A stretch of 38,720 nt of DNA from contig NZ_MUFC01000021.1 of the NCBI RefSeq assembly GCF_001995985.1, positions 3,753 to 42,472 on the forward strand, read 5' to 3'. Under the pieces are notes generated by a model. It ran no database searches and was not told the origin of the DNA. It saw only the letters and a list, made by a program, of their open reading frames with translations. Shown here piece after piece: positions 36,772 to 38,453 of this stretch. Within the stretch, counting starts at the first letter, position 1. Every line of letters begins with the position of its first letter. Source of the stretch: Salinivibrio sharmensis. GTDB taxonomy: Bacteria; Pseudomonadota; Gammaproteobacteria; Enterobacterales; Vibrionaceae. The translations under genes were made by a program, and so were the position numbers.

Positions 36772-37224
36772 ATGGAAATTCGTGCTGGGCACTTAGAGGA
36801 AGCGGTAACGGTGCTTAACAGCGTGCCCGAGTTGGATGCAGGTGTATCCTTGGAGCAATGCCACGCGCGATTAGCGGGACGTACTGCATTGGTATTGGTG
36901 GCGTATCAAAACGGTGAGCCTGTCGGTGCCAAAATAGGCTATGCCACCAGTAAGACGCAGTTTTATAGCTGGCTGGGCGGGGTGACCAAAGCGGCCCGAG
37001 GTCAAGGAGTGGCGAAAGCGCTACTCAAGGCTCAAGAAGCGTGGGTAGCGGCTTCTGGCTATCAAACGCTTGCGGTCAAATCACGCAACCGCTTTACCGC
37101 GATGGTGTGCATGCTGATGCGGCATGGCTATCAGATGGTTGCGTTGGAGCAAAAAGGTCAGCCTGCCGATTACCGGCTTTATTTTGAGAAGCAGATCAAT
37201 AAATGTACAGCGAGTGGAAAATAA
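36772..37224 (+). CDS. GNAT-family N-acetyltransferase
   Basis: 150 residues, a single GNAT domain, cytoplasmic. The acetyl-CoA binding motif A is GGVTKAARGQGVAKALLKAQEAW (about 65-87) with the R-G-x-G-x-A core. The rest follows the fold: LVLVAYQNGEPVGAKIGYA strand pair, TLAVKSRNRFTAMVCMLMRHGYQMVA. The substrate is unknown. GGGAGGT lies 4-8 nt before the ATG. It sits just before the ryhB-like pair; in E. coli ryhB also lies near an acetyltransferase gene (yhhY), which may be coincidence. Confidence 0.9.
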   Translation: MEIRAGHLEEAVTVLNSVPELDAGVSLEQCHARLAGRTALVLVAYQNGEPVGAKIGYATSKTQFYSWLGGVTKAARGQGVAKALLKAQEAWVAASGYQTLAVKSRNRFTAMVCMLMRHGYQMVALEQKGQPADYRLYFEKQINKCTASGK

Positions 37225-37237
37225 GCGTATTTTTTTC

Positions 37238-37267
37238 TTGATAAGCGATAATGAGAATGGTTATTAT
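37238..37267 (+). promoter_or_regulatory. Promoter and Fur box of ryhB copy 1
   Basis: TTGATA (37238-37243), 18-nt spacer, TATTAT (37262-37267). Overlapping it, GATAATGAGAATGGTTATT (37247-37265) matches 15 of 19 bases of the Fur consensus GATAATGATAATCATTATC. Fur-Fe(II) would cover the spacer and -10 and repress when iron is plentiful. Confidence 0.85.
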
Positions 37268-37273
37268 TAACTT

Positions 37274-37417
37274 GCGCTCAGGGTCAAGCTCACATGCTCA
37301 ACCCTGAAGGCACGACATTGCTCACATTGCTTCCAGTGTATTAGCGGGGCGCTTATCAAACAGTGATTAAGTTAGCCTATTTTTGCTAGGCGACACCTCT
37401 TGGGGTGTCGCTTTTTT
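37274..37417 (+). ncRNA. ryhB: RyhB-type iron-responsive small RNA, copy 1
   Basis: Hfq-dependent small RNA that pairs with mRNAs of non-essential iron proteins and causes their decay when iron is low. A 39-base core (37304-37342), containing GCACGACATTGCTCACATTG and TTCCAGT, matches the conserved centre of E. coli RyhB almost base for base. A 5' hairpin is formed by CAGGGT and ACCCTG. The 3' end is a strong terminator. The start at about 37274 is inferred from the -10; length about 144 nt, longer than the 90 nt of E. coli and nearer to the long RyhB of vibrios. Confidence 0.9.
37390..37417 (+). terminator. Terminator of ryhB copy 1
   Basis: GCGACACC-TCTTGG-GGTGTCGC, an 8-bp stem followed by six T and a further T-rich tail, which also serves Hfq binding in such RNAs. 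Confidence 0.93.
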
Positions 37418-37521
37418 CTTTTCTGGGCAAGGGCTTTTCGAACCCGAGTTGTTGGTGTGATGGCTGTGGGTGCAATGACAGTTTGATGACAGTGAGAGAG
37501 TCTGCGCACAAGATCAACAAA

Positions 37522-37536
37522 TGAAAAAGATTCTCA
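37522..37536 (+). promoter_or_regulatory. Additional upstream Fur-like box of ryhB copy 2
   Basis: TGAAAAAGATTCTCA matches 11-12 of the 14 defined bases of the 7-1-7 Fur motif TGATAATNATTATCA. It lies just upstream of the -35 of copy 2. Copy 1 has no clear equivalent. Confidence 0.5.
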
Positions 37537-37544
37537 ATTAAGTA

Positions 37545-37573
37545 TTGAAAACGGTAATGAGAATGGTTATTGT
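37545..37573 (+). promoter_or_regulatory. Promoter and Fur box of ryhB copy 2
   Basis: TTGAAA (37545-37550), 17-nt spacer, TATTGT (37568-37573). The Fur box GGTAATGAGAATGGTTATT (37553-37571) differs from the copy 1 box at one base. Confidence 0.82.
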
Positions 37574-37579
37574 TAACTC

Positions 37580-37729
37580 GTCTTCAGGGCCAAGCCCACA
37601 TGCTCAGCGCTGAAGGCACGACATTGCTCACATTGCTTCCAGTGTATTGGGGCCAGCAAACTGTTACTAAGACAGCTTTGATTTTGTGCTCACTTGTTAT
37701 AGCGACGCCCATCTCGGCGTCGCTTTTTT
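37580..37729 (+). ncRNA. ryhB: RyhB-type iron-responsive small RNA, copy 2
   Basis: Second, tandem RyhB gene, 306 bases downstream of the first in the same orientation. The 39-base core (37610-37648) is identical to that of copy 1. The flanks differ: the 5' arm is TTCAGGGC with GCGCTGAA, and the region between core and terminator is unrelated in sequence. Length about 150 nt, start inferred. The short frame that runs through it (37570-37770) is not a gene. The two copies should share core targets and may differ in targets set by their flanks. Confidence 0.9.
37702..37729 (+). terminator. Terminator of ryhB copy 2
   Basis: GCGACGCC-CATCTC-GGCGTCGC, an 8-bp stem followed by six T. The stem keeps the outer GCGAC/GTCGC of copy 1 but swaps an A-T pair for G-C, a compensatory change showing that pairing is maintained. 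Confidence 0.93.
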
Positions 37730-37766
37730 CTTTTCTCTTCTTTGTCTCTTTGTGGATTAGGGTGGC

Positions 37767-38417
37767 TTAGGCGAGCTCCACCAATTTTTTTACCAACCGA
37801 TTGATGCCAACGGCTGCATCAGTGACAGATGTCGCGAGCATATAGGCTGGGGTGGAAAGCAGATGGTGACGTTGGTCTAACACATAATCCGATACCGGAC
37901 ACTCGATATGCTCACCGCCCATCCGGTTAAAGGCGGCGGCGATATCGGGCTCATTACCAATGGTGCCTTTGACGCCTTTCGGGTAGATCTGCGGGATCAT
38001 GATAGGGGCAATACACATATAGCCAGCAGGCTTCTCGGAACGGGCAAAGGCCTGACACACCGCAAACATATCTTGGTGCACCTGAACCGGATCGCCATTG
38101 TAGGCAAAATCCGACAAGTTTTTCGCTGCCCCAAAGCCCCCGGGAACCAGTAAGGCGTCGAAGTCATCGGCGTTCAGATCGGTCAGCGGAAGAATATCTC
38201 CACGTACAATGCGGCTGGCTTCAGTGAGCACATTACGTGTTTCGCTCATCGCCTCGCCAGTACGATGATTAATGACATGGTGCTGATCGATATCTGGGGC
38301 AAAGCACTGCCATTGGGCATCGTTTTGCTCAAGGGCAAGCAGGGATAACACAGTTTCTTGGATCTCGGCACCGTCAAACACGCCGCAGCCAGATAAGATC
38401 ACAGCAACCTTTTTCAT
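37767..38417 (-). CDS. elbB: ElbB, DJ-1/PfpI-superfamily glyoxalase-like protein
   Basis: Class I glutamine-amidotransferase-like fold of the DJ-1 superfamily; E. coli ElbB has weak glyoxalase activity and has been linked to isoprenoid synthesis, without a firm role. From the ATG at 38417 it has 216 residues (E. coli 217), with AAGGAG 7 nt upstream; an in-frame start at 38453 would add 12 odd residues. Family marks: KKVAVILSGCGVFDGAEIQE, ETRNVLTEASRIVRGDILPL, LLVPGGFGAAKNLSDFAYNG, the nucleophile-elbow Cys135 in GYMCIAP, and LLSTPAYMLA. Convergent with ryhB copy 2; its stop is only 38 bp from that terminator. Confidence 0.95.
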   Translation of the reverse strand: MKKVAVILSGCGVFDGAEIQETVLSLLALEQNDAQWQCFAPDIDQHHVINHRTGEAMSETRNVLTEASRIVRGDILPLTDLNADDFDALLVPGGFGAAKNLSDFAYNGDPVQVHQDMFAVCQAFARSEKPAGYMCIAPIMIPQIYPKGVKGTIGNEPDIAAAFNRMGGEHIECPVSDYVLDQRHHLLSTPAYMLATSVTDAAVGINRLVKKLVELA

Positions 38418-38453
38418 GACGCTCTCCTTGTATCGGCATTTACAATATTGCAA

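Follow-up and report, generated by a model that had tools for sequence, protein, structure and literature searches.

Why bacteria keep sibling small RNAs has been described as an open question (PMC4211561), and one locus of Salinivibrio sharmensis bears on it. In a stretch of 38,720 bases (the window, meaning the whole stretch of DNA that was analysed), a first-pass annotation had noted two tandem RyhB genes, each with its own promoter, Fur box and terminator, and had suggested a local duplication kept for dosage or for split target sets. Here, we ask whether the two genes are what they seem, where the tandem came from, and what distinguishes one copy from the other.

The two RyhB units, at 37243-37342 and at 37549-37648, both read on the plus strand with a spacing of 306, and share 89% ungapped identity over 100 bases. 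Both the spacing and the 39-base identical core (37304-37342 = 37610-37648) are as first described. In a relaxed Rfam scan, each unit matches the full-length RyhB model RF00057 (copy 1: 51.2 bits, E 2e-8, 37306-37384; copy 2: 49.5 bits, E 5.1e-8, 37612-37685), so that the covariance-model check proposed earlier comes out in favour of the pair, with scores under the curated cut-off of 55 bits. A default Rfam scan of the window returns three tRNAs and no RyhB, because both scores fall under this cut-off. Across 296 Vibrionaceae genomes (an even draw from a larger group, under stricter filters), 275 have an RF00057 match at E <= 0.001, and 153 score above the cut-off. The cut-off reflects curation, not biology, and overlooks many vibrio RyhB genes. 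Within the S. sharmensis genome, the next match after the pair (the third-best) reaches 23.5 bits.

Two further claims about the sequence hold in part. The core does match E. coli RyhB, over 35 bases (37303-37337) at 97% in most rows listed rather than over all 39 bases at 100%; such a match occurs in 5374 of 5426 E. coli genomes, with 95-99% identity in 5370 of the 5374 matching records. The flanks were also said to have diverged, which is true of the stretches from core to terminator; the 5' parts lie inside the 89% region and are not strongly diverged.

Table 1. Features of the tandem RyhB locus (positions in the window; counts of invariant columns refer to the eight Salinivibrio genomes).
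Feature	Position	Strand	Remarks
GNAT acetyltransferase gene, upstream neighbour	36772..37224	+	Pfam; adjoins RyhB in other Vibrionaceae loci too
Predicted ryhB1 promoter, TTGATA-18-TATTAT	37238..37267	+	sigma-70-like
Predicted ryhB1 Fur box	37247..37271	+	Fur consensus match; overlapping 19-mers, best 15/19, spanning the -10
ryhB1 RNA, ~144 nt	37274..37417	+	RF00057 match; 5' end inferred from the -10, 3' end from the T-run
Shared core, copy 1	37304..37342	+	same as copy 2; 39/39 columns invariant
ryhB1-specific 3' segment	37343..37387	+	predicted hairpin; 41/45 columns invariant; 12-pair helix paired in 100% of cells
ryhB1 intrinsic terminator and T-run	37388..37417 (terminator match 37388-37413)	+	GC-rich; 11 never-varying pairs
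Pho-box-like direct repeat	37475..37492	-	0 mismatches
Second, weak Fur-like site before ryhB2	37517..37541	+	12/19; ~70 other window positions equal it
Predicted ryhB2 promoter, TTGAAA-17-TATTGT	37545..37573	+	sigma-70-like; -35 and -10 unchanged in 8/8 Salinivibrio
Predicted ryhB2 Fur box	37553..37577	+	Fur consensus match, 14/19
ryhB2 RNA, ~150 nt	37580..37730	+	RF00057 match; ends inferred
Shared core, copy 2	37610..37648	+	38/39 columns invariant
ryhB2-specific 3' segment	37649..37700	+	predicted hairpin; 40/52 columns invariant; two helices paired in 100% and 95.5% of cells
ryhB2 intrinsic terminator and T-run	37701..37730 (terminator match 37701-37724)	+	GC-rich; 9 never-varying pairs
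Presumed ElbB/DJ-1-like gene, downstream neighbour	37767..38453	-	no Pfam match

Each unit is framed by a promoter-like and a terminator-like element in the right order (table 1). Such matches are no commoner in the window than in shuffled sequence (promoters: 2 against a shuffle mean of 2.6; terminators: 4 against 2.9), and their weight therefore rests on order and conservation. Across the eight Salinivibrio genomes, the ryhB1 -35 reads TTGATA in six and TTGATG or TTGATT in the other two. The -10 boxes differ between the copies in a fixed manner, with TATTAT at copy 1 and TATTGT at copy 2 in all eight. The predicted Fur boxes at both promoters stand out in the window. Scored against the Fur consensus printed in PMC2964681, the window's top six 19-mers (14-15 of 19 positions; both strands, overlaps counted) all lie on the two ryhB promoters. 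Together with the RF00057 matches, these sites bear out the original reading of two tandem RyhB genes. The weak Fur-like site upstream of ryhB2 resembles sites found before both RyhB units in the Photobacterium halotolerans group, whose loci (L034-L039) have an extra Fur-like palindrome of the type AATGAAAAT-N-ATT-TCAA before each unit.

The pair is found throughout the genus. All eight Salinivibrio genomes (our own included) have exactly two adjacent RyhB matches at E <= 0.001, a result that also answers the suggested comparison of the same locus in related genomes. In the wider family, 26 of the 296 Vibrionaceae genomes have at least two matches. The 18 of these outside Salinivibrio comprise seven with adjacent copies, namely six in the Photobacterium-like genus g8 and one in g9 (Vibrio sp. 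Of7-15), and 11 with copies at separate places; the 296 genomes thus hold 15 tandems, eight in Salinivibrio and seven elsewhere. A stricter pattern, which requires an exact core match and a spacing of around 300, is present in one of 394 genomes sampled from the order (our own) and in ten named records: five Salinivibrio, Photobacterium halotolerans, P. arenosum, P. galatheae, P. salinisoli and Vibrio sp. Of7-15, a set that may leave out records very close to our genome. Judged from sequence, then, the locus comprises two complete RyhB genes with predicted Fur boxes and terminators, a genus-wide presence and fixed differences between the copies.

Other arrangements also occur in the family. 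In 11 of the 296 genomes (G112, G136, G145 and the g12 genomes G089, G117, G135, G238, G259, G274, G275 and G294), there are between two and four RyhB-like copies that lie apart from one another, some of them weak (33-44 bits). At locus L038 (genome G063), two additional 9-base CATTGCTCA units lengthen the second RyhB core, the targeting part, by 18 bases.

The neighbouring genes tell where the duplication took place. Six proteins around the pair are 90-99.6% identical to those of S. siamensis (L056). In 30 relatives with a single RyhB match, we compared three neighbour genes: a vitamin-transporter-like gene, the GNAT gene and the presumed ElbB/DJ-1-like gene downstream. At least one of the three is shared by 28 of the 30 relatives and all three by 13, and the duplication therefore occurred at the ancestral vibrio RyhB place. 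This agrees with the local tandem duplication first proposed, as does the adjacency of the pair in 8/8 Salinivibrio. The GNAT gene next to ryhB1 is replaced or mostly lost in three of the eight (L009, L010 and L015), where a stretch resembling its last bases is retained upstream of ryhB1.

Whether all tandems in the family go back to one event can be asked of the RyhB tree, which included 32 hand-picked single or second-locus rows and excluded L082, L086, L092 and most Vibrio rows. A single ancestral tandem for all lineages was rejected, both with all copy-1 rows as one clade (p 2.3e-9) and with all copy-2 rows as one clade (p 5.7e-4); a clade of Salinivibrio and Photobacterium copy 1 was likewise rejected (p 0.0065). 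Uniting copies 1 and 2 within a lineage was not rejected (p 0.48 in Salinivibrio, 0.24 in Photobacterium and 0.12 in Of7-15), although in the best tree the two copies form no clade in any of these three. Gene conversion between neighbouring copies could yield the same tree pattern, so that repeated duplications in separate lineages are likely, short of proven.

Within Salinivibrio, the copies have kept some parts in common and others apart. We measured variation in the eight genomes as the fraction of differing pairs, with gaps counted. The core hardly varies (copy 1: 0.000; copy 2: 0.011), followed by the copy-1 3' segment (0.044) and the copy-2 3' segment (0.104). The spacer gives 0.173 in its left half and 0.100 in its right half, and the stretch just past copy 2 gives 0.476. 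The copy-1 3' segment is thus clearly conserved, and that of copy 2 no more so than the right spacer half (0.104 vs 0.100). The most variable part inside the RNAs is the 5' part of copy 1 (0.22), where genomes G006 and G007 have a different sequence. Moreover, the 3' segments of the two copies are dissimilar to each other, and each copy retains its own form in 8/8 genomes. The first-pass annotation had passed over these fixed differences in the 3' segment and the -10 box, as well as the spacer repeat described below.

Both 3' segments are predicted to fold into hairpins. In the alignments, 98.9% of the pair cells are kept in copy 1 and 98.4% in copy 2, against 30-53% in slid controls, over which the folds are favoured since they were taken from single sequences. 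Copy 1 has one pair changed on both sides, and 12 of 500 shuffles pair equally well; copy 2 has none, and its pairing is equalled by 302 of 500 shuffles. Covariation thus does not prove the predicted folds. Genome G007 (L015) is a case apart. Its copy 1, alone among the eight, has a different predicted fold in the 5' half and resembles that of G006, and its copy 2 is one base off that of G005. Between-species recombination within the pair is likely here, and this mixed similarity means that the eight genomes are not fully independent.

What the two RNAs do can be approached through the core and its candidate targets. Fur-family, hfq and phoB genes are all present in the S. sharmensis genome. 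In E. coli or V. cholerae, RyhB has been linked with sodB and sdhABCD (PMC2964681). With an ungapped score, the core pairs with the sdhC start (GGAGCTGAGTGGGCAATATCGTG; scored from the GTG that opens its longest frame) better than with any of 106 background starts (ATG codons that open frames of 120 codons or more, drawn from the window and from 38 loci of the same genome). The sodB start is equalled by one of the 106, and the sodA and sdhD starts are background-like, with 38 and 26 of the 106 as good. RNA duplex energies, computed for ten genes with 12 shuffles each, did not separate sodB and sdhC from controls, and it was this lack of separation for whole-molecule duplexes that led us to the ungapped score. 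In Shewanella oneidensis, the TCA cycle is reported not to be under RyhB control (PMC2964681), so the Salinivibrio targets are not to be assumed.

From these elements, and by analogy with relatives, a working scheme can be drawn in which the pair very probably represents sibling RyhB RNAs, born of a tandem duplication at the ancestral place and acting through an identical core. When iron is plentiful, Fur would block both ryhB promoters. When iron runs short, both RNAs (~144 and ~150 nt) would be made, and the identical core, with Hfq, would pair with the start regions of iron-protein mRNAs (predicted: sdhC and sodB). This pairing would shut off these mRNAs and spare iron. Fur repression, the use of Hfq and target silencing are all carried over from relatives in this scheme. 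Given the core's predicted pairing with the sdhC and sodB starts and the known RyhB targets, the two copies probably share their main targets and silence them when iron is short. The copies have probably been retained because they differ outside the core, each with its own predicted 3' hairpin, and copy 2 with another -10 and an upstream region that holds a Pho-box-like site, through which it may add a second signal. The copy-specific parts may set the timing, the duration or extra targets of each RNA.

The Pho-box-like site is a direct repeat in the spacer that reads CTGTCAT-CAAA-CTGTCAT on the minus strand, a perfect instance of the Pho-box consensus CTGTCAT-N4-CTGTCAT. PhoB binds direct repeats termed pho boxes (PMC10294691). 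The window has no other site within two mismatches (expected 0.22; 18 of 100 shuffles have one), and in the 3.33 Mb genome the spacer repeat is the only perfect match. With 14 fixed bases and 194 positions in the spacer, a perfect match would arise by chance with a probability of about 7e-7, rising to about 3e-5 if a single mismatch is allowed; these figures apply to a motif that was recognised post hoc. With up to two mismatches, the genome contains 27 matches against 9 for the reversed pattern. That the pattern picks up genuine Pho sites in this genome is suggested by two of the 27, one ahead of a PstS-like gene (TIGR02136, E 3e-46, below the family cut-off) and one ahead of a Na/Pi symporter gene. 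Of the 27, 14 fall within open frames of at least 130 codons, and the region upstream of phoB has a four-mismatch site at best. One further match, with a single mismatch, lies between the azurin and zur genes (C38:134541-134558, L100).

The site is conserved in the genus, with five perfect and three one-mismatch instances in the eight Salinivibrio genomes. It lies 151 bases ahead of the same point of the copy-2 core in all eight, and anywhere between 155 and 169 bases from copy 1. Its 18-base stretch is among the least variable in the spacer (7 of 106 overlapping windows, itself included, vary as little or less). Among 54 other distinct RyhB stretches (L092, without the exact core, being left out), none has such a site within two mismatches, and eight have a three-mismatch match. 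The usual Pho box, as known from pstS and phoA, lies about 10 bases ahead of the -10 and is directed at the gene. The Salinivibrio site is unlike this: it faces away from ryhB2 and lies roughly 90-105 bases before the inferred ryhB2 start. A search for a conserved minus-strand -10 by the site gave CATAAT at 12 bases in two of the eight genomes and none conserved, and a PhoB-driven minus-strand antisense RNA of ryhB1 was set aside.

These features suggest a third option beside the dosage and split target sets of the first-pass annotation, namely a different regulatory input to copy 2. RyhB2 would then answer both to Fur (iron) and, hypothetically, to PhoB (phosphate), and RyhB1 to iron alone, a tentative reading to which we give somewhat less than an even chance. 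PhoB is described as a dual regulator with a position-dependent effect, and many of its intragenic sites in E. coli as inert (PMC10294691). Another Vibrio small RNA is preceded by a predicted phoB site (PMC6186989). In E. coli, RyhB went undetected in phosphate-starved cells (an unpublished result quoted in PMC10191379), so that a link between phosphate and RyhB, if real, would be a departure from that species. We regard it as rather doubtful that dosage accounts for the pair by itself, with redundant copies that simply supply more RyhB. The identical core and the predicted Fur boxes on both copies would fit, as would a copy-2 3' segment no better conserved than spacer, and PrrF1 and PrrF2 of Pseudomonas aeruginosa are called largely redundant (PMC4211561). 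The -10 and 3' differences fixed in 8/8 genomes and the conservation of the copy-1 3' segment argue the other way.

Split target sets, in which the copy-specific 3' segments would pair with different mRNAs, are on balance unlikely. Mutually dissimilar segments that each keep their own form in all eight genomes (41/45 and 40/52 columns invariant) are what one would look for, but both are predicted hairpins, and their conservation may serve structure or stability instead. Redundancy, split targets and split inputs can coexist. A long third RNA, read through terminator 1 and carrying unique spacer sequence, has a model in PrrH, which the similarly arranged prrF1/prrF2 locus makes (PMC4211561). 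In Salinivibrio this is improbable: terminator 1 combines 11 never-varying pairs with a T-run, the left spacer half is variable (0.173), and the conservation of the right half is equally explained by the promoter region. Lastly, the first-pass annotation had named an assembly duplication among the things that could undo its reading. This is ruled out by the copy-specific sequence that both copies have in 8/8 genomes, two of them assembled in 2 contigs. A decayed second copy is hard to reconcile with the conserved promoter, core and terminator of copy 2, and we give next to no credence to either form of this explanation.

How does the pair compare with known systems? It resembles the RyhB of E. 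coli and V. cholerae (RF00057) in its core, promoter Fur box and intrinsic terminator, and the single-copy RyhB of other Vibrionaceae in its neighbour genes. It differs from the former in its two tandem copies, a 5' hairpin, copy-specific 3' hairpins and scores below the Rfam cut-off. The predicted Salinivibrio RNAs exceed the 90-nt form of E. coli in length, and so does RyhB in V. cholerae, with 215 nt, and in S. oneidensis, with 168 nt (PMC2964681). Paired RyhB genes had been taken as known from separate loci. This is right for Salmonella RfrA/RfrB and Yersinia RyhB1/RyhB2, which are likewise two RyhB siblings per genome but are distal rather than tandem (PMC4211561). However, tandem ryhB copies with Fur boxes are in print for Shewanella amazonensis, which one sentence of PMC2964681 mentions; that species belongs to another family, and we liken the two by description. 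Tandem precedents that had been overlooked are PrrF1/PrrF2 (PMC4211561), the P. halotolerans group and Vibrio sp. Of7-15. The P. aeruginosa pair also consists of tandem, Fur-controlled, iron-sparing RNAs (a control that in Salinivibrio is predicted) and yields PrrH by read-through, and it is described as having no sequence homology to RyhB (PMC4211561). Consistent with this, the PrrF model RF00444 scores the Salinivibrio pair at 16.7 bits (E 4.8, cut-off 90), which gives no sign of homology. A parallel for split inputs comes from the csrB copies of Vibrio tasmaniensis, duplicated small RNAs that take different inputs (PMC6262261); these are of another RNA family, and the second input in Salinivibrio is a sequence match only.

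A literature search on RyhB in Salinivibrio returned no paper, and the titles and abstract openings among the matches listed mention neither a PhoB-controlled ryhB nor the Salinivibrio pair, which leaves their absence from the literature unproven. Tandem RyhB as such is already known (S. amazonensis), and the Salinivibrio pair is real and genus-wide. The Pho-like site at ryhB2 would be a new feature. The pair combines an identical targeting core with fixed differences in promoter, upstream region and 3' segment, at a position that holds a single copy in relatives, so that dosage, split targets and split inputs can be told apart in it. A functional Pho-like site would provide a direct link between phosphate and RyhB; and if RyhB2 does take both inputs, the tandem duplication would have wired the iron-sparing response of these bacteria into their phosphate response.
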